Shown in pieces: positions 9,834 to 32,565 of a stretch of DNA of 33,231 nt (within the stretch, counting starts at the first letter, position 1; the number at the start of each line of letters is the position of its first letter). Both the position numbers and the translations under genes were made by a program. The stretch is from positions 1-33,231 of the forward strand of contig JAFSID010000051.1 of assembly GCA_017439965.1 (NCBI GenBank), read 5' to 3'. Origin of the DNA: Clostridia bacterium (lineage in GTDB: Bacteria > Bacillota > Clostridia > Oscillospirales > SIG627). The notes under the pieces are model-generated. The model was not told the DNA's origin. It searched no databases and saw nothing but the letters and a program-made list of their open reading frames with translations.

Positions 9834-12800
9834 TTAGTTGGTGATTTCCTGACCTGAGAAGCCGAAAACGAGCTTTGCACGGGTAGGTGCAGAGGTTTGC
9901 GCTTCTCCTGTATAGGTTGCGGTGAATCTGCCCGCGCCAACATTAAGAGTACCTGTTACGCTGTCAAGCTTCTTTGGGATTCTGTCGTTGTCGAAGATAT
10001 ACGCTTCACCAGTCAAGGGGTCGTACTCAATGTACTCGCCTGAGTTGAGAGTGGTGTTGAAGGTTACCGAGCTTGAGCCAACGGTGACGGTGGGATTCTT
10101 AACGGGAGCGTTAATATGCTCGTACGCCATAATCTCACCGACACAAGCCTGATCACCCGTACCCGTAGTGCGAATGGTTACGTTTTCGATGTTTGTGAAG
10201 TATACGGTTACTCGATAGGTGGGATATGCCGCGCCTGTTGTGGTGATACCGTCGAATTTGTACTTGTTGATATCGTATTCCGCGTTGTCCGCATCAAGCA
10301 GCACGACGTCACGCCAGCCATCAAAGTTAAGGTCTATGAAATAGTCAATGTGTCCGCCCGTTTCTCCCGAGGCAATTCCTGAGCTAAGGCTTATGAGCAT
10401 TGCGTCACCGTCTTTGCCCGTACCCTTTACGGGGAAGGAGAGAGCCATATTGTTGCTCATATCAACCTTTATGCTCTGCGAAAGCTTTTGCTCGGAAAGA
10501 GTCTTGGTGCTGTCAAGCTTGAAGAGAGAAATGGGGTTATTGAACTCGGTTGAGTATCTTGCCTCAATTCTCACGAAGGGATTCTGTGCCGAGAAGGGAT
10601 TGTTGCCCGTAAAGGAATTGAAATTGCCCTTTGCATTTCCTAAATTAGCCTCTGAGTAATACATCTGGAGGAAGGCATATTCGCCCGGCTTCTTTTCAAT
10701 TATTTTGAATTCTCCGCCGAGGTCGATTACCTTCTGCTTAGCTTCCTCTGTGAAGTAGTTTGATCTGCGGATAGTTGAATAATATTTGTTGTAGTATTCA
10801 AGGTTGTGCCTCAAATGAGGACTATTCTCAATGTTTGAGGGCGAGAAGTTGCTTATAACGTTTGACATATTATAGACGACCGAAGCAACGCCGAAGTAGT
10901 CAATATCGTCGTGGAAGAGGGTCTTTTCAATGACGTTTTTCATACGCGTTGGCGACGCAACGTCGGGATAGAAGTGTATCCAGCCGAGCGTTGGCGTGTA
11001 TCCTGATGCAATGGATCTGAGGTTTGATTCAATGTGATTTTTGAAGAAGTTCTTGTAGCTTCTGTGGGGAGTATCCCAAGCGCCTACTCTTGCTCTTACG
11101 TTCCATATCTGAGGACCTGTCATTGCGGAGTCCTCAACGATGGGGTCGGTCTTACATTGCGAGAGGGTTCTCTGTAAAAACATCTGGAAGTAGTACCATA
11201 TCTCCGAGCTTGGAACGTGTCTTCCGAGACCGTCCATAGCGTCGAAGTATATCATATCAAAGCCACCCTTGTTATATGCCTCTGCAATTCTGTCCGCTAC
11301 GTGATAGAAAAGCTCCGAGCCGATAACGGGACAGAAGTGGTTGAAGTAGCCCGAGAGGTGATAAATTTTAGCGCCCTCGTAATGTCTTGCAATTTCCGTA
11401 CCGCACTGACCTCTCTTTACGTTTATGAAGCCTTCTGTGGTACCCTGACCGACGTGGATTATCTCCTCGTCAATAAGCACGTAACGGCTGTTCTTGTAGA
11501 AGAAGCTGTATGTGTTATCGAAATTCGTTGCATCCTCAACGGTGGGGAGGTTTGAACGTGTTCTTGAAATATCCTTGCGGAGAGTGTAAACGTCGTCCAT
11601 TACCTCAAGCTGCTTTTGCCACTTGGGATTTGAGAGAATCTCGGTGGAGGCGTAGTCAATATAGTATCCGTAGGTGTGCAGACCCGTGTCAACGCCTGCC
11701 TCGTCAAGCCTTGAGCCTATTTCCTTGTAGTAATCCTCTACCTTGCCTGATTCAACGACGGGGAAGGAGAAATCACCCTGAATGAAGGAGTTCATACCCT
11801 TGGCAACGTCTATCTGTTCAAAGCCGTACAAGTCCTTAACCTCGATGTAGGAGTCGATAAGGTCGTGCTGTACCGAGGATACTATAACGTAATCCGAGGT
11901 GTTTTCGGGAGCGTCGAAGGTGTAAGGACCTGCCTTGTCGCTTGCAAGTCCGACGCTTCTGTCGATAGCGTCCGCAACCTTCTTGAGCTTGTCAAGATAG
12001 GAGTCCTTGTGAGAGAGCACGACACCGACCTTTGCACCCATCGTGCCTGCATCAAAGTTTGAGTAAGCAACGCCGAGTGAGGTCTTGGTTACGTTCAAGC
12101 CGTATGCATTGTAATAGGTGTATGCGGTCATACCCATTCCGCCGAAGCGGTAATCGTTATTTTCGTCCAATGGGTCAAGAACGGTGTTGATATTTGCAAA
12201 GCCTACCGAGTATGACTTGGGCGAAAGCTCGGAATTGATTTCAAAGGAAATGAAGTCGTCCTCAACGTCAACGAGCATATAAACCGCCTCGCCGTTGCGG
12301 AAGGTGAACTTGATCTGATTGCCGTCGATTGAGCATTTGCTGGGAGGAATTTTTGAGCTGTCTGCGAGGGTTATGTAAGCAAACTCGGTCTGGGTGGCTC
12401 CAAGCACGCTCTCGCCGTTTGCAAGGTTTATAGCCTCAAGAAGCTTTCCGTTCTTCTTTGAAATGCTGAGCTTTATATGGCTGTTGGCAATGTCAATGGT
12501 TGATGAGGTCTCGGTAACTCCGTCAAGAGACGCGGTAAAGTAGCTGTCTCCGTGAACGTTTGAGTTGGAAGCCATTATAATATTGTAAAGTGCCCAATGG
12601 CTCTTGGAATCGGAGAATACGTTGTAGCCGTTGGTGGTGCTGACGGTTTTTTCCGAAACCTTGAGGCCGAGGAGACGGTTGATGACCGTTACTACCTCTG
12701 CTCTGGTGATGGTGTTGTCGGGTCTGAAGGTGTTATCCTCGTAGCCGTTAACGATACCCGCATTTGCCGCCTCGATTATGGAATCGTAGTAAAAATGCTC

Positions 12801-21816: not shown

Positions 21817-21890
21817 CGCGGGATTGTAGTAGGATACGTGATTTATACTGAAACACCGTTGAATTTAATAAACACCTTATCAAAAAAATT

Positions 21891-21930
21891 AAAAACTAAA
21901 AAGAGTGGGTTGAAAAACTCACTCTTTTTT
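21891..21930. terminator. Bidirectional intrinsic terminator between ygjP and the invertible segment
   Basis: Arms 21899-21911 and 21916-21928 pair over 13 bases with one mismatch around a GAAA loop. On the plus strand a T run follows; on the minus strand the stem is followed by a TTAGTTTTTAATTTT tract. It ends rtcB-ygjP transcription. It would also stop leftward transcription from the promoter at 22008-22036, about 100 bases after its start. Confidence 0.9.
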
Positions 21931-21957
21931 GTATGTATAAGGATATTACTTTTTGTG

Positions 21958-21982
21958 TAGAACTTTTACTTCTAAACGATAC
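21958..21982. repeat. Left inverted repeat / recombination site
   Basis: 25 bases beginning TAGAACTTTTAC and ending AAACGATAC, exactly complementary to 23332-23356. The core can be read as left arm 21954-21962 (TGTGTAGAA), spacer 21963-21969, right arm 21970-21978 (TTCTAAACG). The outer arm departs from perfect symmetry at two of nine bases. Confidence 0.9.
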
Positions 21983-22007
21983 ATAATTATTAATAATTCG
22001 ACATTAT

Positions 22008-22036
22008 ATTATAACATTATATGAATAATTTGTCAA
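22008..22036 (-). promoter_or_regulatory. Perfect sigma-A consensus promoter inside the invertible segment, facing left
   Basis: On the minus strand TTGACA (22031-22036) and TATAAT (22008-22013) match consensus at all twelve positions with a 17-base spacer. Transcription should start near 22001 and leave the segment through the left repeat. If the segment inverts, the same promoter would start near 23313 and read into the Tad operon. Confidence 0.85.
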
Positions 22037-22043
22037 CAAATTA

Positions 22044-22052
22044 TGATATAAT
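22044..22052 (+). promoter_or_regulatory. Extended -10 promoter for the recombinase gene
   Basis: TGATATAAT at 22044-22052 is an extended -10 element (TG-n-TATAAT) reading toward the recombinase; no good -35 is present. It is back-to-back with the leftward consensus promoter; a near-palindrome at 22027-22042 (AATTTGT-CA-ACAAATT) covers the leftward -35 and ends just upstream of the -10, and could be a shared operator. Confidence 0.5.
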
Positions 22053-22123
22053 TTCAAACTTTTCGTCAAATTGTATGCAAAAATCACATATTTATACACT
22101 TTTTTTATTTTATGTTTATTTTG

Positions 22124-22142
22124 ATGGTCAAATAAATGGTCA
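22124..22142. repeat. Tandem ATGGTCA motif, possible recombinase arm site (left)
   Basis: Two direct copies of ATGGTCA, 12 bases apart, within a 19-base stretch that recurs with one difference at 23275-23293 in the same orientation. The recombinase has an N-terminal AP2-like arm-binding domain, and such proteins bind paired short direct repeats near the ends of their elements. Confidence 0.45.
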
Positions 22143-22160
22143 AAAGAAAGGATGATTAAA

Positions 22161-23342
22161 ATGTCACGACGCGGAGACAACATTCACAAAAGAACTGACG
22201 GAAGATGGGAGGGAAGGTATAAAAGCGGTGTGAAGCCTAACGGAAAAATAAGGTATAGCTCTGTATATGCACATTCTTATACAGAGTGTAAGAGGAGGCT
22301 TGAGGCTGCAAAAAAACTGTGTATTCCCAAAAGGGCTTGCGACACAACTTTTTCAGATATTATCGACAAATGGTTAGAAAGCAAGAGAATGTGTATGAAG
22401 CTTGCAACATATACGAAATATTCAGGCTTAATCAACACTCATATCAAACCGTCTCTCGGAAATATAAAAATATCCCAAATTAACGTCGATATGATTAACG
22501 CATTTTTGAGAGAAAAAACAGAAAAGGGGTCTGTAAAAAAGCATGCACCGTTATCAGCCTCTTATGTCAGAACTATGTCAATAATCATCAGCTCGGCTAT
22601 AAAGTATTCATCTGATGAACGTTTGACAAGTCAATTAAAAAGCATATACAAGCCGATAATACCCAAAAAGGCAATCAGTAGCATTTCAAGAGAATGCGAA
22701 GCAAGGCTTATGAAGGCGCTGGTTTCCGAGAATAGTACCGTTGCAATCGGAACAATGCTTGGATTACAAATGGGATTACGCATACGAGAAATTTGTGCAC
22801 TTAAATGGGAATGCGTTGACCTTGAAAACAATATGATTCGTATTGAAAGCAGCGTTGTCAGAGTCAACTCAGGCCTTGAAAAACCTAAATCCATTCTGAT
22901 TTTAGACACTCCAAAAACAAGCTCTTCAATAAGACAAATACCCATACCAAACGGCTTGAAAAAGCTACTTGCAGACAAATTTTTATCACGAAAGTCAGAT
23001 TTTGTAGTATCAGACAAGGATGGCTTCTGCGGAACAAGAGTCTTTGATTACAAATATCGAAGCTTACTAAAAAAACACAATTTGCCGAATTATAACTTTC
23101 ATCTTTTGAGGCACACCTTTGCGACGCGGTGTGCAGAATCAGGAATGGACGCAAAAACCTTGAGCGTTTTACTTGGCCATTCAACAGCCTCGATATCATT
23201 AAACCTCTACGTTCATCCATCCGTTCAGGTGATGAAGGAATACTTGGATTTTATTTACGATTCGACGAGTATTAATGGTCAAATCAATGGTCAGCAAACA
23301 AGAAAAATAACATTAAAAGGTCAAAAAAACGGTATCGTTTAG
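22161..23342 (+). CDS. Tyrosine recombinase (integrase family) within the inverted repeats
   Basis: A 393-residue site-specific recombinase. The N terminus (DGRWEGRYKSGVKPNGKIRY, then SVYAHSYTECKRRLEAAK) resembles the AP2-like arm-binding domain of Tn916-type integrases. A SAM-like core-binding domain covers about residues 60-160. The catalytic domain has Arg207 (GLRIREICALKW), Lys252 (TPKTSSS), HLLRHTF with His314 and Arg317, His340 (LLGHS) and the nucleophile Tyr350 (NLYVH). All catalytic residues are present. The ATG at 22161 stands 8 bases after AAAGGA; the ATG at 22152 overlaps that site. The stop codon lies in the right inverted repeat. There are no other mobile-element genes, so a DNA-inversion role is favoured over integration (inference). 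Confidence 0.93.
   Translation: MSRRGDNIHKRTDGRWEGRYKSGVKPNGKIRYSSVYAHSYTECKRRLEAAKKLCIPKRACDTTFSDIIDKWLESKRMCMKLATYTKYSGLINTHIKPSLGNIKISQINVDMINAFLREKTEKGSVKKHAPLSASYVRTMSIIISSAIKYSSDERLTSQLKSIYKPIIPKKAISSISRECEARLMKALVSENSTVAIGTMLGLQMGLRIREICALKWECVDLENNMIRIESSVVRVNSGLEKPKSILILDTPKTSSSIRQIPIPNGLKKLLADKFLSRKSDFVVSDKDGFCGTRVFDYKYRSLLKKHNLPNYNFHLLRHTFATRCAESGMDAKTLSVLLGHSTASISLNLYVHPSVQVMKEYLDFIYDSTSINGQINGQQTRKITLKGQKNGIV
23275..23293. repeat. Tandem ATGGTCA motif, possible recombinase arm site (right)
   Basis: Matches 22124-22142 at 18 of 19 bases in direct orientation. It lies in the 3' coding end of the recombinase, where it encodes INGQING-type residues. A further GGTCAAA is at about 23319. 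Confidence 0.45.
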
Positions 23343-23356
23343 AAGTAAAAGTTCTA
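23332..23356. repeat. Right inverted repeat / recombination site
   Basis: 25 bases starting GTATCGTTTAG, the exact reverse complement of 21958-21982. The core site reads CGTTTAGAA (23336-23344), spacer GTAAAAG (23345-23351), TTCTAAACG (23352-23360), a perfect 9-base dyad. The recombinase TAG stop is at 23340-23342. In RNA the dyad would form a 9-bp hairpin in the leader of the pilus operon. Confidence 0.9.
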
Positions 23357-23384
23357 AACGGTATATTTAAAGAGGTATTTGATT

Positions 23385-23456
23385 ATGAAAATTAAACTTG
23401 CAATACTTGAAAAGACGTGGCGTATCTCAATAAAATCGTGTCTGTGTTCAGTGTAA
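23385..23456 (+). pseudogene. Displaced 5' end of the CpaE-like gene (apparent -1 frameshift)
   Basis: The ATG at 23385 is preceded by AAAGAGG at 9 bases, a good ribosome binding site. It encodes MKIKLAILEK, the typical first strand of a receiver-like domain, and then leaves frame to a TAA at 23454-23456. The CpaE-like frame continues in the -1 register: re-reading the G at 23414 gives GAC-GTG-GCG, that is D-V-A-Y-L-N-K. One missing G in the AAAAG-ACG stretch at about 23411-23416 explains both frames. Confidence 0.7.
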
Positions 23457-24448
23457 AATATGCTGATAAGTTTGAAATTTATTCCTTTACAGATCCCGAG
23501 GTTGCCTTGGCAAGTCTTGATGATGCCAGAATTGACGTTCTTATTTCAAACGATGCGTTTGAAATAGACGTCAGAGCCTTGCCCAAGCGTTGTGGATTTG
23601 CATATCTCGTTGATTCCGCTGATATAAATCTCGAAAATGACCAAAGGGCTATTTGTAAATTCCAGAAGGCAGACCTTATATACAGACAGATTCTCAGCGT
23701 ATATTCCGAAAAGGCGGGAAGTATTTCCGGCTTGAAATTCGGTGAGGACAGCACGAAAATAATAATATTCAACTCTGTAAGCGGTGGTACCGGTGCGTCA
23801 AGCATGGCTGCTGCGGCTTCTATATACTTTGCTTCAAAGAACCAAAAAACGCTTTATCTTAATCTTGAAAAATTCGGCTCGTCGGATTTGTTCTTCTCAG
23901 GTGAAGGGCAGTTCGATATGAGTGACGTTATTTTCGCACTTAAGAGCAAAAAGACTAATTTGCCACTTAAGCTCGAAAGCTCCGTAAAGCAAGATGCGAG
24001 AGGCGTTTATTATTATTCTCAGCCCAAAATCGCTCTTGATATGCTGGAGCTTGGGAACGACGAGATTATTAAGCTTATCTCCGAGCTTAAGCTTACCGGC
24101 TCATATGATTACATAATTATTGATACCGACTTTGCCTTGAACAAGGACAGCATTAAGATTTGCAAGATGGCGTATTCGGTAGTTTGGGTATCCGACGGCT
24201 CGGAAATATCCAACGAAAAAACCTTCAGAGCATACAATGCAGTTTCAACGCTTGAGGCAGATGCAGAGTCGCCTCTCCCCAACAGACTTTGTATCGCTTA
24301 CAACAAATTCAGCAACAAGACCTCAAAGGTGCTTGACGATATCGGAATTAAGAATATCGGCGGCGCTCCGAGATACGAGCACGCAACGACGCAGCAGATT
24401 CTTGAGCAGCTTTGTACGAAGAGCGAAATATTCGATAAGATTATTTAA
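23417..24448 (+). CDS. CpaE/TadZ-like pilus-assembly ATPase (N-terminal receiver-like, C-terminal ParA/MinD-like)
   Basis: CpaE/TadZ proteins place the Tad pilus machine at the cell pole or membrane. From the GTG at 23417 there are 343 residues, but the natural start is probably the ATG at 23385 with a one-base frameshift near 23414. The N-terminal 90 residues are receiver-like (SVFSVKYADKFEIYSFTDPEVAL). KIIIFNSVSGGTGASSMAAA is the deviant Walker A of a MinD/ParA-type domain and lacks the usual Lys, as in some CpaE-like proteins. DYIIIDTDFALNKD matches the Walker B region, and VVWVSDGSEIS follows. The GTG has only a weak ribosome binding site. It is the first gene of the pilus operon, 12 bases before cpaF. 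Confidence 0.8.
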   Translation: MAYLNKIVSVFSVKYADKFEIYSFTDPEVALASLDDARIDVLISNDAFEIDVRALPKRCGFAYLVDSADINLENDQRAICKFQKADLIYRQILSVYSEKAGSISGLKFGEDSTKIIIFNSVSGGTGASSMAAAASIYFASKNQKTLYLNLEKFGSSDLFFSGEGQFDMSDVIFALKSKKTNLPLKLESSVKQDARGVYYYSQPKIALDMLELGNDEIIKLISELKLTGSYDYIIIDTDFALNKDSIKICKMAYSVVWVSDGSEISNEKTFRAYNAVSTLEADAESPLPNRLCIAYNKFSNKTSKVLDDIGIKNIGGAPRYEHATTQQILEQLCTKSEIFDKII

Positions 24449-24460
24449 CGGAGTAGCGAT

Positions 24461-25690
24461 ATGGATTGGGATTTATTTGTATTAGAGGTAAAAAAGTACG
24501 TTACCGAAAATCTTCCGTTGAGTAAGATGGAGGATGACGAGCTTCAGGCTAAGATTGAGGAGATAGTCTCCGAAAAAATAGGCGGAAGATACTGTCCGAT
24601 TGATCAGAAGGTAGCAATAGTCGAGCAGGTATACAGCTCAATAAGAGGCTTCGGCCTTCTCGATTCGATAATCAAGGACGACACCATAACGGAGGTTATG
24701 ATAAACGGTCCCGATAATATTTTTATCGAGCAGAGCGGTCGTTTGTTCAAGCTTGACAAGCAGTTTGAAAGCCAGCGAAAGCTTGAGGACGTAATACAGC
24801 GAATCGTAGGTCTTGCAGGACGAGAGGTAAACCAGGCAAATCCTATATGTGATACAAGACTTCCCGACGGCTCTCGTGTAAACGTTGTTTTGCCTCCGAT
24901 TGCACTTTGCGGTCCTACGCTTACGATACGAAAGTTTTCAAAGACCCCTATGACGATTGAAAGGCTTATAGCGTACGGCTCTATAACTCAGGAGATAGCC
25001 GACGTCTTAGAGCTTTTGGTTAAAGCAAAATACAACATATTTATCGCGGGCGGAACAGGATCGGGTAAAACAACCTTCCTGAACGCACTTTCGAACTATA
25101 TTCCTAAGGACGAGCGTATAATCACGATTGAGGACTCTGCGGAGCTTCAGATTACGGGCGTTGAAAACCTTGTAAGCCTTGAAACGAGAAACGCTAACGC
25201 TTCCGGTGCGGGACAGATAACCATCCGAGACCTTATCAAGTCCTCTCTCCGTATGAGACCTGAGCGAATAGTAGTCGGTGAGGTTCGTGGCGGTGAGGCA
25301 CTTGATATGCTCCAGGCAATGAATACGGGTCACGACGGATCGCTTTCAACGGGTCACGCAAACTCTACCGAGGATATGCTCAGCCGTCTTGAAACAATGG
25401 TGCTTCAGGGTGCTGCGGGACTTCCGCTTGAAGCTATCCGCCAGCAGATAGCCTCTGCGGTAGATATAATCATCCACCTTTCACGTCTGCGTGATAAATC
25501 GAGAAAGACCATGGAGATAACCGAGGTCGTCGGTTATGAAAACGGTCAGATCATTCTCAATCCCCTTTACGTTTTTGAGGAGGATGAGAAGAGTACTCTC
25601 GAAAAGGTTTCGGGTAGCCTTAACAGAACTAAGAATCCGATGATAAATGTCCATAAGCTCAGACTATCGGGCTTTAAAACAGAAATATGA
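24461..25690 (+). CDS. cpaF: Tad pilus secretion ATPase CpaF/TadA
   Basis: CpaF is the hexameric ATPase that powers Tad pilus assembly at the cytoplasmic membrane. The 409-residue protein has an N-terminal domain (VMINGPDNIFIEQSGRLF at about 79-96), a Walker A IAGGTGSGKTTF (residues 195-206), IITIEDSAELQ, and the secretion-ATPase signature RPERIVVGEVRGGEALDML with the Asp/Glu box. GHDGSLSTGHANS supplies the His box. CGGAG lies about 9 bases before the ATG. It follows the CpaE-like gene and precedes tadB with 9-12 base gaps. Confidence 0.96.
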   Translation: MDWDLFVLEVKKYVTENLPLSKMEDDELQAKIEEIVSEKIGGRYCPIDQKVAIVEQVYSSIRGFGLLDSIIKDDTITEVMINGPDNIFIEQSGRLFKLDKQFESQRKLEDVIQRIVGLAGREVNQANPICDTRLPDGSRVNVVLPPIALCGPTLTIRKFSKTPMTIERLIAYGSITQEIADVLELLVKAKYNIFIAGGTGSGKTTFLNALSNYIPKDERIITIEDSAELQITGVENLVSLETRNANASGAGQITIRDLIKSSLRMRPERIVVGEVRGGEALDMLQAMNTGHDGSLSTGHANSTEDMLSRLETMVLQGAAGLPLEAIRQQIASAVDIIIHLSRLRDKSRKTMEITEVVGYENGQIILNPLYVFEEDEKSTLEKVSGSLNRTKNPMINVHKLRLSGFKTEI

Positions 25691-25699
25691 GGTGTTGAT

Positions 25700-26560
25700 A
25701 TGGCTTTGTTTAAAAAAGAAAAAAAGGTGCTTGAGCCTCAGTATTATACTTCCGCTACGAATATTCCTACATATAATTATAGGGTTTATTATATGACAAC
25801 AATTGAAAAGGTCGGGTATTTTTTACTGGCGTTTGTTGTCGGTGCCTTGGTGGGCTATTTGTTTTACGGCGGAATCGGTAAAAACGAATTCGGTCAGCCT
25901 ACGGCACTTACCTGGATATTGAACATTACGATTTCCACAATTGTGGGTATAGTTGCAGGACTTTTGTTCGTTCCTATGAGACGTAAGGCTATTATTGACA
26001 AAAAGAGGATATCACTTAACCGTCAGTTCAGAGATATGCTTGAGGCGTTCAATACGTCTCTCGGTGCAGGAAAAAACGTAAACGATTCGTTCTTTTCCGT
26101 TTATGAGGACCTTAAGATACAGTATCCCGAGGATGCCTTTATATTAAAGGAGCTTGAGGTAGTTATTTCGGCTATTCATAACAACGTTGCCATTGAAACG
26201 GTTCTTGACGATTTGGGAGACAGAAGCGGTAACGATGATATAAAGAGCTTTGCAAACGTATTCAAAATCTGTTATCACAAGGGCGGTAATATCAAGGACG
26301 TTATCAGAAACACCCGTGAGATTCTCAGCGATAAAATGGAAATATCCGAGGATATCGAGACTCTTGTAACCTCAAACAAGCTTGAGCAGAACATAATGAC
26401 GGTTATGCCCGTTGCGTTGATTGGACTTATAAAGATGACGAGCCCCGATTTTGCGGCGAACTTCGTTTCTCCTGCGGGAATACTTTCCACAACGATTGGT
26501 ATTGTAATATTTATAGTGGCTTACTTTATCGGTAAAGCCGTGCTTGATATTAAAATGTAA
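25700..26560 (+). CDS. tadB: Tad pilus platform protein TadB (T2SSF)
   Basis: An inner-membrane platform protein of the type II secretion F family, 286 residues. Two membrane segments lie at about residues 36-58 and 70-92. The T2SSF cytoplasmic domain follows (QFRDMLEAFNTSLGAGKNVNDSFF; then HKGGNIKDVIRNT). Two further hydrophobic segments lie near residues 230-280. TadB works with TadC and the CpaF ATPase to assemble the pilus. GAGGT lies about 8 bases before the ATG. The distinction between TadB and TadC rests on gene order. Confidence 0.9.
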   Translation: MALFKKEKKVLEPQYYTSATNIPTYNYRVYYMTTIEKVGYFLLAFVVGALVGYLFYGGIGKNEFGQPTALTWILNITISTIVGIVAGLLFVPMRRKAIIDKKRISLNRQFRDMLEAFNTSLGAGKNVNDSFFSVYEDLKIQYPEDAFILKELEVVISAIHNNVAIETVLDDLGDRSGNDDIKSFANVFKICYHKGGNIKDVIRNTREILSDKMEISEDIETLVTSNKLEQNIMTVMPVALIGLIKMTSPDFAANFVSPAGILSTTIGIVIFIVAYFIGKAVLDIKM

Positions 26561-26572
26561 GGAGGCTTTCAA

Positions 26573-27448
26573 ATGTTAGGCTTGGATATGTTGGATTATG
26601 CAATAATAGCTTTGGGAGCTATATCCTTTGTTGTATGGTTACTGTTTCACCTTAAGGGCTTAAAGTACAGCTCGATGTTTGAGCCTCTTGACGACAAGGA
26701 ATATCCCTTAAAGGATATTTACGGCTTGGGATATGCAATTCTCGAAACTATTAAGTATAAGTATAAAAGCAAGGGCGACAGAAAGCTTCGCCAGGAGCTT
26801 GAAATCATTTACGGAAATAAGTACAGTGAGTACTATCTGAGAGTAATACATTCTCAGCAGATTGCAATGGCGTTTACCGTGTTTGTGTTTGGTCTCGCTT
26901 TTTATGGGTTGGCCGATGACCCTGTTGCACTTCTTCTCGGAGTTATGTTTGCGGCACTCGCTTATTACTATTTCGGAACAGTTACGTCAAAGAAGATACT
27001 TAAGCGCTCAGACGAACTGCTTGGAGATTTTTCCGAGGTTGTATCAAAGCTTGCTCTTCTTACCAATGCAGGTATGATTTTGAGAGAGGCTTGGTATGAG
27101 GTCGCATACGGCGGAGAAGGCGTAATATATACCGAAATGCAAATTGCTTACGAGGAAATGAACAACGGAGTAGCTGAGATAGATGCAGTTTATAATTTTG
27201 GTACCCGCTGTATGATTCCTGAAATAAAGAAGTTTACCTCGACAATAGTACAGGGTATGACCAAGGGTAGCAGTGAGCTTGTCGATATGCTCCAGCAACA
27301 GAGCAAGGAGGTTTGGCAGCTCAAGAAGCAGCTTGTACGCCGTGCAGGTGAAAAGGCTGCAAGCAAGCTGTTAATTCCTATATGTATAATGTTTGTCGGT
27401 ATACTTATCGTTATTATCGTTCCTATTTTTGCAAATATAGGAGTTTAA
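26573..27448 (+). CDS. tadC: Tad pilus platform protein TadC (T2SSF)
   Basis: The second T2SSF-family platform protein, 291 residues. Hydrophobic segments lie at about residues 7-26, 97-115, 118-137 and 268-289. The central cytoplasmic domain has KRSDELLGDFSEVVSKLALLTNAGM and MTKGSSELVDMLQQQSKEVW. AAGGAGG is 8 bases before the ATG, 12 bases after tadB. The pairing with tadB downstream of cpaF is the standard Tad arrangement. Confidence 0.9.
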   Translation: MLGLDMLDYAIIALGAISFVVWLLFHLKGLKYSSMFEPLDDKEYPLKDIYGLGYAILETIKYKYKSKGDRKLRQELEIIYGNKYSEYYLRVIHSQQIAMAFTVFVFGLAFYGLADDPVALLLGVMFAALAYYYFGTVTSKKILKRSDELLGDFSEVVSKLALLTNAGMILREAWYEVAYGGEGVIYTEMQIAYEEMNNGVAEIDAVYNFGTRCMIPEIKKFTSTIVQGMTKGSSELVDMLQQQSKEVWQLKKQLVRRAGEKAASKLLIPICIMFVGILIVIIVPIFANIGV

Positions 27449-27770: not shown

Positions 27771-27822
27771 TCTTGCGAACTCAAAAATAATTTGTTTGAT
27801 TTTACCTGAAAGGATAATAAAA

Positions 27823-28485
27823 ATGATAGATTTTTTTGAAAAAACCAAAAGCGAAAGGGCCGCTGTTACGATAGTGGAATCGGCTATCGTTTTTCCTGTT
27901 ATGTTTATTATCCTGCTTTTTCTTATGTATATGGGAAATGCTTATTACGTAAAGGCGCAGGTTGATGCAATAGTTGTTGAAAATGCCATAGCGGGCGCAA
28001 ACTACTGTGCAGACCCTATACTTGAGAGCATTAAGAGAAACGGCGGTGCAGTTCCTTCGGTTAAGAAGCTTGAGGTTGAGCCGTACAGATATTTTATCGG
28101 CGGTATGGACGACGTGGAGGATTATATCGCTGACAGAGTGAAAAAACAGATAGACTCGTCCACTATATCTATTTTGGGCGAGATGTCTCCTGATTTGAAA
28201 ACGAGTAAGTCAAATATTGCAAAGTTTAATAATTATATACTTTATTCTACCTTTTCCGTTAACGTAAAATACGATATCACCTTCCCGATAAGACTTTTGG
28301 GAAGTAAAGAGCCAACAGTGATGAGAGTAAACTCATATGCCGAGATAGCCGTTAGTGACACCTCTGAGTTTATCCGTAACACTGATATGGTAATAGATTA
28401 TTTCGGCGATTCTAAGGCGGGAACGACCATCAAGGGCGCATTCGATAAAATAAATGAAGTTTTGCAAACGTTCGCATCAAAATAA
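27823..28485 (+). CDS. TadE-like pseudopilin
   Basis: A 220-residue protein of the TadE type. The leader MIDFFEKTKSERAAVTIVESAIVFPVMF holds the membrane segment with a Glu at about residue 19, as in TadE pseudopilins. A beta-rich extracellular domain of some 180 residues follows. The frame is open to 27796, but the ATG at 27823 with AAAGGA upstream gives the normal short leader and is preferred. It is followed after 15 bases by a very large relative with the same leader type. It is thought to be a minor pilus component or assembly factor. Confidence 0.85.
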   Translation: MIDFFEKTKSERAAVTIVESAIVFPVMFIILLFLMYMGNAYYVKAQVDAIVVENAIAGANYCADPILESIKRNGGAVPSVKKLEVEPYRYFIGGMDDVEDYIADRVKKQIDSSTISILGEMSPDLKTSKSNIAKFNNYILYSTFSVNVKYDITFPIRLLGSKEPTVMRVNSYAEIAVSDTSEFIRNTDMVIDYFGDSKAGTTIKGAFDKINEVLQTFASK

Positions 28486-28500
28486 AAAGGAGGATGTAAA

Positions 28501-31500
28501 ATGAGATTTTTTGAAAAGACCAAGGGCGCAATCTCTATATTTTTGGCAATTCTGCTTCTTCCTATGATGACTCTTGCTGCGGCGTTTGTTGATGCAGGCA
28601 AGGTTAAGCTTGCCAAGGGAATGGCAGAGTCGGCGGGAGACCTTGCCCTGAATACCGCACTTACAAATTATGACAGCGACCTTAAGGAGCTTTACGGTCT
28701 TATGGCAACCGCGCAGAGTACCGATGACCTGTTTAACAAGTTGCCAGATTATTTTATGACATCAATTACCTCCTCCGGTGTGAGCGAGGAGGATGCCTTG
28801 ACCTACGTTGAGCAGATTATGGCACAGCTCGGATTGGTTTCCGAAAGCAATGACGTATCCGATATTATGAATATGGAGGTTGCGGATTTTGCCGTTAAGA
28901 AGCTGAGCAATGCAAATCTTGCCAACCCCACTCTTATAAAGAAGCAGATTGTTGACTTTATGAAGTACAGATCTCCCATCAATACGGGTCTCAGCTTCAT
29001 TTCTTCACTTAAAAGCTTTACGACCTTAAAGCAACAAACCAAGCTTATTGAGAAAAAGCAGGATTATTACGAGGCTCAGCAGACCGTAATGGAGGATTTG
29101 CAGAAGGCTTGGTCCTTTGTTAAGGCGTATAACAATACTGAAGTTGCACTGAATCCGAATTATGTACAGACTGTTTCGGATAATATTGAAATAATTAAAA
29201 ATGGAGGCAAAATTGGTAATTGGGATTATTATGGCTATACAAATAACAACAATACCAATAATACCAATAATGAGTACGTAAGACCTAAAGGATATGCCTA
29301 TTTATTTATATGGGATATATATGACGTGTATGTGGATTTTTCTACTACACAAAACATTCAATATGAATACAGATTAGGAAGCAAAGATCTTCTATATAAC
29401 GTTCCCGCGGAAGGAAGGGCTAAAAATAAAGTAGAGGAGCGTGATTATCCTACTATTTATTTGAGTGAGAGTGATAGACAATATACATTTGAAGATTACT
29501 GTGGTATGTACTACAACAAAGAAAAGGGGTACGAGAATCTTCCGACTGTTGAGGATTTTAAAACTTTGTTATCCAATTTCTTTGCTGAGGTAACTGCAAT
29601 TAATAATCTTACGAGTATAATAGCCCAAAAAACTGACACTGATGACAACGACTATGAGTTGCGATATTTCGTTAATGCAATGCGTGGCACAGAAGGCGTT
29701 GATGATTATTCCAGACACATATATAATATGTACAATTATTATCAGAGGATTAAGGCGGCTAGTATATGGGTAGAACAATATGATTATGAAAAGCCTGAGC
29801 CTCAAGAGTCAACACAGGACGAAGAAGAAACTGACGGAGATGAAGTACAGGAAAAAAGTATATCTTCCAAGGATATATTGAACACTATTATTGAACTTAA
29901 TTCAAATAGTCATCAAACGGGCAAATTAGGAATATCTAAATGGCTCGCTAATGCAGAAAAAGAGTTCAATAAGATAATGACCAATCTTGAGGTTGTTCAG
30001 AGCTTTGCTGAGATAGACTCCTCGGAAAAAGCGTATACGACGCATAAAGAATCAGTTAACATAATACAGGTAGAGCTGATTCATGCAGCAGACGAGATTT
30101 TGGCTTACGAAAACGAGCTAAAAAAGGCTAAGACGGCACTTGAAAAGGCAATAGAGTATTTAAATGCTGCTAAAGGCAAGCTTAACGGAACTGTGGCAAC
30201 TGCTAAAAGCGAATGGAATACCGCGGCTAATAATTCGGCTATACAGGATACAAGCCTTGCCAAGCAGGACAAGGCGGAGATAGACCAGCTTGACAAGTAT
30301 TTGAACGTTGACAATATAGATAAGCTTATTACGCGTCTTACAAACGTTAAGAATGATATAGACGCTGTAATAACCGAAATGAGAAAGTACACATTCTGCG
30401 GTAAATATTACGGTGAGTTAAAAAGCACTGATGATATGATTAAGGCTTTTGAATCTACCGGTAAGAAATCCGACTTTTTTAACTTAACTGCTAAAAAGTC
30501 TGATTTGAGAAGCTTTGTAGGTGGATTAATAGCGACTCACAGTAGCTCCGGAAAAATTACTTGGCCAAAAGAAAACGGTCATGAGCCTAACCTTAATTTG
30601 AGTAAGACCACACTCTATTCGTATCTTTCATCAAAATTTGCAAATGTCGGCGCTGCTGAGATGAATGAAGGTTCACCAACACCCTCGACCGATACGGGCG
30701 AGGATACCGAAAACGGAAAAACTCTGTACAAGAAGATCAAGAGTACATCCGAGACGGAAGCCAGCTCATTGAAAAAGGGCAACGAAGATGAGAATAGCGA
30801 TAAAAAGGACGAGGATAAGGAGAAACTTATCGAATTTAAGGATTTGCCTAACATGCCTTCGAAGAATACCGTAGTTGGAGGCGGTAAGGAATTTGAAGTA
30901 AATGAAACAATTGACACCTCGGCCGATAGCGGTATTTCTTCAGCCTCCTCGTCACTTGACAGTATGTTTGGTGATGACTTCCTGGGTAAGCTGGGAGATC
31001 TCGGAACGGATATAAGAGACGCCCTGTACGTTTCCGATTACGTTATGAGTATGTTCAGCTATGATACAATCGAGAAGGAATATAAGGAGGACAATAAGGG
31101 TAAGTTAGGTGAAAATCACGAAATAGAGGACGGTGACCTTCAGACTCTTACAAAATGTAATATAAATACGAAAAACAATTACGCTTATCGCAACGAGGTA
31201 GAATATATAATCTACGGAGGCACATATGCGGGCAACAGCGCTAAGGCGTATGCTTCTATTTTCGGAATACGCTTTGGCTTTAACGTCGTTTACGCCTTTG
31301 CTACCTCTGAGATCCGTGACAGTGCTCTCGCTATTGCAACGCCGATTTCGGCGGCAACTCTCGGAATTATACCCGTGCCTCTTATTCAGGCGGTTATAAT
31401 CATAGGTATTGCCTGCTGTGAATCGGGAATAGATATTGCCGAGCTTGCTAACGGCAAAAAAATACCTCTCTATAAAAATTCAAAAACTTGGAACTGTTCA

Positions 31501-32565
31501 ATTACAGGATTGGTTAATAAGGCAAAGGGCGTAGCAGAAGCGGAGTTGAAGAAAGCTGCAACGCATATTGTGGACGAGGGCGTTAATAAGCTTAACGGGC
31601 TTCTGGATATGGCGGATGAGGAAATAACTGCAAATATAGAAGCCTATGGAGACGACGCGGTATCCGCGGTTACTTCAGCTTATGATAATTTAATTACCGA
31701 GAATGCCAATCTTGCCATACAGCAGCTTACCACCTACGTAAACACCGCCGTTCAGGAAGCTCTTTGTCTTGAGGAAGGGGAAACCTACGATACTAAAAAG
31801 ACCAAGGTGATTGAGTGGGTGAAATCCGAGCTGAATTCCTGGGGAGCACAGTTTACGGGGGACGACATTGCTTCGATCGTTAAGCGTGAGGCTGTTAAGG
31901 TAATAGTCAATAATAGCGACAGCTTTATAAAGGGGCTTTTTGATGAGCTGGAAAAAACCGCGAAAAATGGAACGGGTGTGGATATCGGTAAAACGATTGA
32001 AGATATTACTTCGGGCGCAACGGTAGACGCACTTGGTGGTGCGGTTATGGAAAAAATAACTAAGATTAGAGATGAAATAAAAAAACAATTAGACACAGGT
32101 GTTGCTGAGGTGAAAAATTTTAAGGATCAGATAAAATCCGATATTGAGGCGTCGATTGAAAACGGAGCCCAGGACCTTAAGAATACCATCAACAGTAAGC
32201 TTGACGGTATGTTCGGAGGAGATGGCACGGGTAGTGCTCAGGGCGGTGCCTCAACGGGTATGGCATCCTTCTTCTCCTTCAGCTACAGTGATTATCTGAG
32301 ACTGTTTCTGCTTATTGGTACCTTTGCCAACGAGGAAAAGGTGCTTCTCAGAACCGCCGACGTTATTCAGGCGAATATGTCCAAGATGATTAAAAAGGAC
32401 GACGGCTATAAGCTGTCCGACTCGGCAGTCTACGTCAAGGCTACAGCCGATATTCAGGTAAAGCCCACGCTGCTCGCGCTCCCGTTTTTTGCAAGCGTGG
32501 AGAATAATTCAATACACAATTCAAATTGGTATACGATATCCTACAGCGGTATAGCGGGATATTAA
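28501..32565 (+). CDS. Very large TadG/pseudopilin-like surface protein (DUF5702-like)
   Basis: A 1354-residue protein whose leader resembles the TadE-like one. MRFFEKTKGAISIFLAILLL opens a single N-terminal membrane segment (about residues 10-33), and AGKVKLAKGMAESAGDLALN follows. This start matches the DUF5702 type that often ends Tad operons in Clostridia. Residues 70-210 are helical. A variable, Asn/Tyr/Asp-rich part covers about 217-540. Coiled-coil-like helices lie at 500-620, an acidic/Ser-rich linker at about 720-790, and a hydrophobic patch near 945-975. Long helical segments and a Gly-rich stretch precede the C terminus. AAAAGGAGG is 6 bases before the ATG. The size suggests a pilus-tip or adhesin role (inference). 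Base composition of the middle part differs. Confidence 0.78.
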   Translation: MRFFEKTKGAISIFLAILLLPMMTLAAAFVDAGKVKLAKGMAESAGDLALNTALTNYDSDLKELYGLMATAQSTDDLFNKLPDYFMTSITSSGVSEEDALTYVEQIMAQLGLVSESNDVSDIMNMEVADFAVKKLSNANLANPTLIKKQIVDFMKYRSPINTGLSFISSLKSFTTLKQQTKLIEKKQDYYEAQQTVMEDLQKAWSFVKAYNNTEVALNPNYVQTVSDNIEIIKNGGKIGNWDYYGYTNNNNTNNTNNEYVRPKGYAYLFIWDIYDVYVDFSTTQNIQYEYRLGSKDLLYNVPAEGRAKNKVEERDYPTIYLSESDRQYTFEDYCGMYYNKEKGYENLPTVEDFKTLLSNFFAEVTAINNLTSIIAQKTDTDDNDYELRYFVNAMRGTEGVDDYSRHIYNMYNYYQRIKAASIWVEQYDYEKPEPQESTQDEEETDGDEVQEKSISSKDILNTIIELNSNSHQTGKLGISKWLANAEKEFNKIMTNLEVVQSFAEIDSSEKAYTTHKESVNIIQVELIHAADEILAYENELKKAKTALEKAIEYLNAAKGKLNGTVATAKSEWNTAANNSAIQDTSLAKQDKAEIDQLDKYLNVDNIDKLITRLTNVKNDIDAVITEMRKYTFCGKYYGELKSTDDMIKAFESTGKKSDFFNLTAKKSDLRSFVGGLIATHSSSGKITWPKENGHEPNLNLSKTTLYSYLSSKFANVGAAEMNEGSPTPSTDTGEDTENGKTLYKKIKSTSETEASSLKKGNEDENSDKKDEDKEKLIEFKDLPNMPSKNTVVGGGKEFEVNETIDTSADSGISSASSSLDSMFGDDFLGKLGDLGTDIRDALYVSDYVMSMFSYDTIEKEYKEDNKGKLGENHEIEDGDLQTLTKCNINTKNNYAYRNEVEYIIYGGTYAGNSAKAYASIFGIRFGFNVVYAFATSEIRDSALAIATPISAATLGIIPVPLIQAVIIIGIACCESGIDIAELANGKKIPLYKNSKTWNCSITGLVNKAKGVAEAELKKAATHIVDEGVNKLNGLLDMADEEITANIEAYGDDAVSAVTSAYDNLITENANLAIQQLTTYVNTAVQEALCLEEGETYDTKKTKVIEWVKSELNSWGAQFTGDDIASIVKREAVKVIVNNSDSFIKGLFDELEKTAKNGTGVDIGKTIEDITSGATVDALGGAVMEKITKIRDEIKKQLDTGVAEVKNFKDQIKSDIEASIENGAQDLKNTINSKLDGMFGGDGTGSAQGGASTGMASFFSFSYSDYLRLFLLIGTFANEEKVLLRTADVIQANMSKMIKKDDGYKLSDSAVYVKATADIQVKPTLLALPFFASVENNSIHNSNWYTISYSGIAGY

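Follow-up and report, generated by a model that had tools for sequence, protein, structure and literature searches.

Among the described systems closest to the locus of this study, the Hin segment of Salmonella carries a promoter along with its recombinase gene and switches an adjacent surface-structure operon, fljBA. In case of the fimS switch of Escherichia coli type 1 pili, the tyrosine recombinases FimB and FimE serve an invertible promoter of the pilus operon, and their genes lie outside the invertible segment. Our study concerns a window of 33,231 nucleotides (the whole stretch of DNA analysed; contig JAFSID010000051.1 of the Clostridia bacterium assembly GCA_017439965.1), in which a 1,399-bp segment with one tyrosine recombinase (integrase) gene adjoins a Tad pilus operon. 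Judged from the sequence, this segment is very probably a self-contained promoter-inversion cassette, which likely inverts and so connects or disconnects its promoter and the Tad pilus operon. Recombinases have been described as lying occasionally within the invertible segment, Hin being an example (PMC5903667, in the portion available to us), and Hin is a serine recombinase (PMC11868660, likewise in part). In Clostridioides difficile, the tyrosine recombinase RecV is associated with inversions before surface operons (PMC5903667, same portion). In the accessible part of PMC11892184, inverton group 139 with invertase group 35 comprises 33 invertons, 32 of them from Clostridia, and is linked to tyrosine-type integrases intersecting them or within 5 kb, with orientation shifts in reads.

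The window locus resembles Hin in having the recombinase gene and the promoter inside the segment and a surface-structure operon, the predicted target, next to it. The enzyme, whereas, is a relative of the Int chain 6emy with 7-bp spacer sites, and it is not a serine recombinase since it falls in the Phage_integrase (tyrosine) family. With fimS the locus shares the tyrosine recombinase, the putative invertible promoter and the pilus operon, but its recombinase gene lies inside the segment and its pilus is of Tad type. Its length is 1.4 kb, against 314 bp for fimS in the part of the fimS literature available. The locus is Hin-like in layout and fimS-like in chemistry, and is neither by family. 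RecV switches are also clostridial and also use a tyrosine recombinase before surface operons, but RecV serves several switches, whereas here each cassette has its own recombinase and its own spacer. The two group 139 examples given in the accessible part of PMC11892184 are 257 and 255 bp long, too short for an integrase, in contrast to 1,399 bp with the integrase inside; the window extends the group 139 picture, as far as that part presents it, to segments holding their own integrase. The integrases of Tn916 and Tn1549 are the nearest solved relatives by sequence (E 1.9e-14) and have the N-terminal extension and the tandem arm-type repeats in common with the window, whereas the window segment is without transfer or excisionase genes, has its sites and spacers arranged for inversion and carries an outward promoter. 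In the open-licence PubMed Central literature, searches gave no account of a Tad operon under an inversion switch, and some of them returned only PMC9187656 on bifidobacterial sortase pili (available in part). An earlier note on this DNA, made from the sequence alone, had known of no description of the arrangement with a Tad operon, and within that literature this holds.

The segment is bounded by inverted repeats that are perfect over 25 nt and measure 1,399 nt from outer edge to outer edge (Table 1), and longer arms (21955-21982 and 23332-23359) are 96% complementary across 28 nt. By our own arithmetic (about n^2/2 / 4^25), fewer than 1e-6 perfect 25-bp inverted pairs are expected by chance in 33 kb. 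The left repeat contains the dyad TAGAA-N7-TTCTA and the right one a wider dyad, TATCGTTTAGAA-N7-TTCTAAACGGTA, which is 92% matched over 12 nt. The left spacer is CTTTTAC on the plus strand and the right spacer is its reverse complement, GTAAAAG. The earlier note had claimed perfect 25-bp repeats around a single tyrosine recombinase gene, which we confirm to the base, and in each repeat a dyad core whose 7-bp spacers are reverse complements, which the sequence bears out. In the own genome of the window, a search with TTTAGAA-N7-TTCTAAA at up to 2 mismatches gave 16 forward matches against 38 for the reversed control, that is, no further copies above control; only the two repeat places carry the site.

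Inside the repeats there are the integrase open reading frame (ORF) and two antisense frames of 128 and 111 amino acids (aa) overlapping it, and nothing else; no transfer, excision or cargo genes were found among the ORFs of the segment. The integrase ORF matches the Pfam families Phage_integrase and Phage_int_SAM_3, and its residues R210, K255, H317, R320, H343 and Y353, whose catalytic roles were read off the alignment to Int (6emy), are invariant across 34 aligned sequences. The closest solved relatives are the Int chains 6emy, 6en0 and 6emz (E 1.9e-14 to 6.9e-14), which we take to be Tn1549 Int. In the own genome (2.44 Mb, 106 contigs), the family is represented by a single integrase match at E ≤ 1e-30.

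A perfect extended sigma-A consensus is present at 22036-22008 on the minus strand, 25 bp inside the left repeat and facing left. Nine promoter-like sites were found in 2.1 kb, against 7.7 expected in shuffles, and the 12/12 match is unique to this position; the window promoter scores are 13.5 outward and 8.5 inward. The earlier note had the segment carry a promoter for the pilus operon, but gave no position for it. The promoter itself is found as a perfect consensus, but it faces outward on the minus strand, and the operon is predicted to be OFF as sequenced, because this promoter faces away from tad and towards a hairpin just outside the left repeat. A rightward promoter inside the segment, reading into tad, was considered and rejected, as the strong consensus sits on the minus strand. 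RNA folding of the hairpin gave z values of -2.9 (minus strand) and -4.1 (plus strand), and a simple terminator scan listed no terminator at its position.

In the proposed mechanism, the recombinase would pair its two core sites, and strand exchange across the 7-bp spacer would invert the segment together with the recombinase gene. As sequenced, the promoter would drive transcription into the terminator-like hairpin and not towards tad (OFF), and in the inverted segment transcription would cross the repeat and enter tadZ (ON), as predicted for the related locus L136 (Ruminiclostridium sp. RGIG8806). The distance from the -10 element to the tadZ ATG would then be 78 nt by arithmetic, 50 to the outer edge of the repeat plus the 28 between the right repeat and the ATG, a gap which includes AGAGG. 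That the switch adjoins a Tad pilus operon, as the earlier note had put it, is borne out by Pfam matches to TadZ, T2SSE (TadA), T2SSF (TadC) and TadE among the genes 3' of the cassette.

Related loci were collected in two sets. The first drew on 394 genomes of the order, 29 of which had a match at E ≤ 1e-60, and 37 loci were examined; the second was a contig profile search with the 34-sequence alignment, in which the best 80 of at least 580 confirmed relatives gave 79 loci. With the window added and five shared contigs (L085, L088, L098, L107 and L131) subtracted, this makes 112 loci, which are not independent, some coming from close relatives or from a single genome. The relatives are at 31-51% identity. 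Flanking inverted repeats of score at least 15 were found at 36/37 loci of the first set, 61/79 of the second and 93/112 overall without duplicates. Direct repeats of the same score flank 13 of the 79 loci; excision via direct repeats was rejected on this comparison, which also lends little support to the direct-orientation sites with excision that the earlier note had named as speaking against inversion. The cassettes (n = 92) are mostly 1.34-1.6 kb long, with a range of 1,217-1,811 bp, and their half-sites follow approximately the consensus TTTCGTAGAA. The 7-bp spacers are inverted-identical at both ends in 91 of the 93 sites, a figure which, like those for the repeats, is partly circular because the sites were found as inverted repeats. 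The diversity of the spacers (84 distinct ones across the 93 sites) is not built in by how the sites were found. Moreover, the spacers differ between cassettes in 8/8 genomes having two or more compared, and the cassettes of one genome are therefore predicted to flip independently.

The promoter survey covered 91 cassettes, L066 and L080 being left out of the 93 as their 5' region is too short. The best outward promoter scored 11 or more in 64/91 cassettes and the best inward one in 5/91, with mean scores of 11.6 outward, 9.2 inward and 8.9 in shuffled sequence. In 78 cassettes the outward score reached 10.5, and 56 of these have a -10 element whose end lies 20-45 bp inward of the repeat. [GC]GTCA motifs in tandem, with a spacing of 11-13 nt, occur in the 5' region in 43/91, near the 3' end in 37/91 and at both ends in 20/91, against at most 0.1 in shuffles and 0/91 mid-gene. 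These may be arm-type sites, bound by an integrase with two kinds of target site, a reading in keeping with the three Int chains named above as nearest solved relatives. By simple ORF calling, an outward gene within 1 kb lies only on the integrase-3' side in 43 of the 93 cassettes (predicted OFF) and only on the promoter side in 24 (predicted ON); 21 have outward genes on both sides and 5 on neither. Among OFF-type loci, terminator-like hairpins stand outside the promoter-side repeat in 11/41 (0.8 in shuffles) and beyond the opposite repeat in 1/43, while ON-type loci have them on both sides (5/24 and 6/23), and insulation is therefore indicated for a part of the family only.

The inversion itself is suggested by several comparisons. 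Loci L165 (genome G430) and L166 (genome G456, same contig as L095) come from one genus; they share the strand in the alignments of the left flank (90.8%) and of the right flank (75.0%) but not in that of the cassette (opposite strands, 92.0%), with the breakpoints inside the repeats and both integrase ORFs open. Between L053 and L094/L095 the operon-side flank lies on opposite strands up to the repeat and the cassette on the same strand, and the other flank is unaligned. Ten loci are tad-adjacent: the window, L048, L051, L061, L062 (no repeat above threshold), L070, L087, L092 (Candidatus Soleaferrea massiliensis), L093 and L136. Among the nine with repeats, the integrase is co-oriented with tad in 8 (predicted OFF) and opposite in L136 (predicted ON), where a 12/12 promoter reads into tadZ in the geometry predicted for the flipped window.

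A 99%-identical integrase, P0002, with four residues differing from the window enzyme, was found on a contig whose length is exactly 1,399 nt and equals that from perfect repeat to perfect repeat, although this contig is known to us by its length, its sequence being unread. Such a contig would be expected where both orientations coexist, because the assembly graph built from a mixed population would be interrupted at the outer edge of each repeat. A multicopy element behind it is less likely, as the window genome has a single copy, although the source sample of the contig may differ. Of the 120 homologues listed for each protein, 28 of the integrase (P0002 included) and 9 of TadZ have a longest contig of 1,350-1,650 nt (p = 0.001); within contigs of 1.0-2.5 kb the counts among the matches listed are 28/37 and 9/37 (p = 2e-5), and the TadZ list holds closer relatives than the integrase list. 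The claim of the earlier note that the segment inverts thus gains support from the L165/L166 pair, both orientations at tad loci, the partly circular spacer agreement and the 1,399-nt contig. The opposite orientation, which the note had proposed to look for in related genomes, was found in the orthologous pair and, at tad loci, between different organisms (L136). Both orientations appear to occur in the family; for the window's own species, it is the 1,399-nt contig that bears on this.

Several observations weigh against the switch as proposed, beside the partial circularity and the unread contig already mentioned. L165 and L166 have integrases 40% identical to that of the window and stand beside another operon, not at the window locus. 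The sole tad-ON example, L136, has an integrase of 320 aa which keeps the catalytic domain but is without the N-terminal domain, and its activity is less sure for this reason. The window promoter is a predicted one, identified by its consensus match; 27/91 cassettes have an outward score below 11, and the Enterococcus cassettes L148 and L157 score 10.5 and 9.5 outward, far from the repeat. Orthologous sets share one orientation (L055/L056, L073/L075, L094/L095 and L068/L127/L074). The Enterococcus raffinosus cassettes have one orientation in 3/3 records and, in a second comparison, in 4/4 records holding most of the query (one 83% identical), each count including the query's own record; no strain-level flips were seen in these plasmids (for L188 there was no second full record). 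The strain Er676 was tried as an empty site, since one of the flanks is present there with no cassette; the match stops short of the repeat, so that the site is not a clean one.

Further points concern the window strain. R212, two positions past the catalytic R210, stands where 33/33 other aligned homologues, P0002 included, have G, and the window allele may be weak because R212 replaces an otherwise invariant residue beside the R210 motif. Together with the apparent frameshift of tadZ, of which an intact 354-aa copy exists, it would fit a relic in which the integrase allele or the frameshifted tadZ has left the switch locked and of no effect in this strain. We consider a relic unlikely: no catalytic residue (R, K, H-R, H, Y) is missing, the sites remain perfect repeats, and the G of the 99%-identical P0002 indicates that close kin carry ordinary copies. 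R212 and the frameshift may mean either that the switch of this strain is impaired or that both are assembly errors. In a reversed polarity, the operon would be ON as sequenced: tad would be transcribed by read-through from the integrase gene, and the outward promoter would have some other target. The integrase and tad are indeed co-oriented with no terminator listed between them, 8/9 repeat-bearing tad loci show the sequenced orientation, and a weak plus-strand promoter match (9/12) overlaps the right repeat. This polarity is nevertheless quite improbable, for there is no good inward promoter before the integrase in the window or, mostly, in the family (5/91 against 64/91), terminator-like hairpins follow the outward promoter in 11/41 OFF-type loci, and no obvious second target lies on the left, where the YgjP gene is convergent.

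It is very improbable that the segment represents a minimal Tn916/Tn1549-like mobile element, with the repeats as its ends and an integrase that excises and inserts rather than flips. The kinship with the solved Int chains, the tandem arm-type repeats at both ends in 20/91 cassettes and the occurrence of up to four cassettes per genome at different loci would suit it. In the integrase tree, moreover, 9/10 tad-linked rows fall in a 22-row clade (Shimodaira-Hasegawa-like approximate likelihood ratio test, SH-aLRT, 99) interspersed with cassettes of other operons, and cassettes or their neighbours have moved, as this mixing indicates. The tad linkage requires 7 label changes on the tree (shuffled mean 9.7, 2/500 as low), and the tree does not point to a single origin of it. 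Coupling sequences of Tn916-like insertions normally differ, whereas the spacers here match inverted in 91/93. The segment holds no other mobility gene, the flanks of L165 and L166 are collinear while the cassette alone inverts, an outward promoter is frequent in the family, and the L136 cassette had no nucleotide match in the phage collection. An integrase match was found in 13 records of that collection, at no more than 34% identity among the matches listed.

For the family as a whole it seems fairly probable that there is a large unrecognised group of portable one-gene switches, consisting of a Tn1549-like integrase, an outward promoter and paired sites, from Clostridia to Enterococcus, each cassette having its own spacer address within its genome, and placed before Tad, FHA/FtsK, leucine-rich repeat (LRR), SpaA, SLH, VWA and regulator genes. 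If so, a single cell could switch many surface systems independently of one another, an independence which the differing spacers make directly testable. In our view, stand-alone 'site-specific integrase' genes of gut Clostridia are easily mistaken for phage or transposon debris, and many of them are predicted to act as phase-variation switches, of one gene each, for surface structures including Tad pili. By the rule of an outward promoter at the integrase 5' side with matching spacers, the ON/OFF state could be told from any assembly. The size of about 1.4 kb may explain isolated short contigs of such segments in metagenomes.

Table 1. Features of the cassette and of the adjoining Tad operon in the window
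Feature	Position	Strand	Remarks
Hairpin, T-runs on both strands	21890..21937	.	just outside left repeat; predicted terminator for outward promoter
Left inverted repeat / recombination site	21958..21982	+	spacer CTTTTAC at 21963-21969
Outward promoter, TTGACA-17-TATAAT + TG extension	22008..22036	-	12/12 consensus match (predicted)
Two TGGTCAAA repeats, 12 nt apart	22125..22144	+	candidate arm-type integrase sites, 5' side
Tyrosine recombinase (integrase) gene	22152..23342	+	396 aa; start at 22161 suggested by homologues
Two TGGTCA repeats, 12 nt apart	23276..23295	+	candidate arm-type sites, 3' side, within 3' end of integrase gene
Right inverted repeat / recombination site	23332..23356	+	spacer at 23345-23351; overlaps integrase gene end
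tadZ, first Tad operon gene	23385..24448	+	apparent single-base frameshift near 23413; open frame listed 23417-24448
tadA (T2SSE ATPase)	24461..25690	+	
tadB-like by position	25700..26560	+	no Pfam match
tadC (T2SSF)	26573..27448	+	
tadE-like	27796..28485	+	
Large DUF5702 protein of Tad operon	28501..32565	+	

To the left of the left repeat, the hairpin is followed by the YgjP and RtcB genes. The intact 354-aa TadZ of the protein database is identical over the 343 aa of the window's open frame. In the window's own taxonomic family, an integrase match reaches E ≤ 1e-30 in 3/22 genomes, the own one among them; in the others its identity is 29-31%. The own genome is the only one of 21 with a TadZ homologue at E ≤ 1e-15. 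A search for extra tad-linked cassettes in three families gave few new loci, with no tad gene in the 1.5-kb flanks of five. Longest contigs of 2,660, 29,824, 41,385 and 58,110 nt are common to the integrase and TadZ homologue lists (matched by size), and more tad-linked cassettes are therefore suggested.

Pfam was run on 30 chosen adjacent genes out of about 110, plus nine proteins of L095, L136 and the window. Together they gave FHA, FtsK/SpoIIIE, PP2C phosphatase, BspA-type LRR with dockerin, SpaA/LPXTG, SLH, VWA, LytTR response regulators, TetR, S26 peptidase, glycosyltransferase and nonribosomal peptide synthetase (NRPS) domains, as well as a helicase, a serine recombinase and a Cas12f1-like TNB domain; 5/30 had no Pfam match. 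The first genes beside L047, L049, L086, L091, L094 and L095 form one cluster, a second recurrent target, with FHA domains in those of L049 and L095 and a PP2C phosphatase gene next in L095. The nearest promoter-side genes of L140 and L161 also cluster together, that of L140 being a large serine recombinase. Shorter cassettes of 1,217 and 1,250 bp are seen in L136 (integrase at 9968-10930) and L108, where the integrase match starts at residue 67. On the megaplasmids of Enterococcus raffinosus and E. gilvus (L185-L190), the repeats score 25-26 at 5/6 loci and only 12 at L190, and L185 and L190 adjoin signal-peptidase or WxL-protein genes. On plasmid pRUMAL02 of Ruminococcus albus 7 (L191, 134316-145419), a family integrase with a weak flanking repeat (score 15) is flanked by two tyrosine-type recombinase genes and by three genes annotated 'recombinase family protein'. 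In pMM35_02 of Vescimonas fastidiosa (L192), a cassette with 29-bp perfect repeats has a dockerin-protein gene on one side and an S26 signal peptidase gene on the other.

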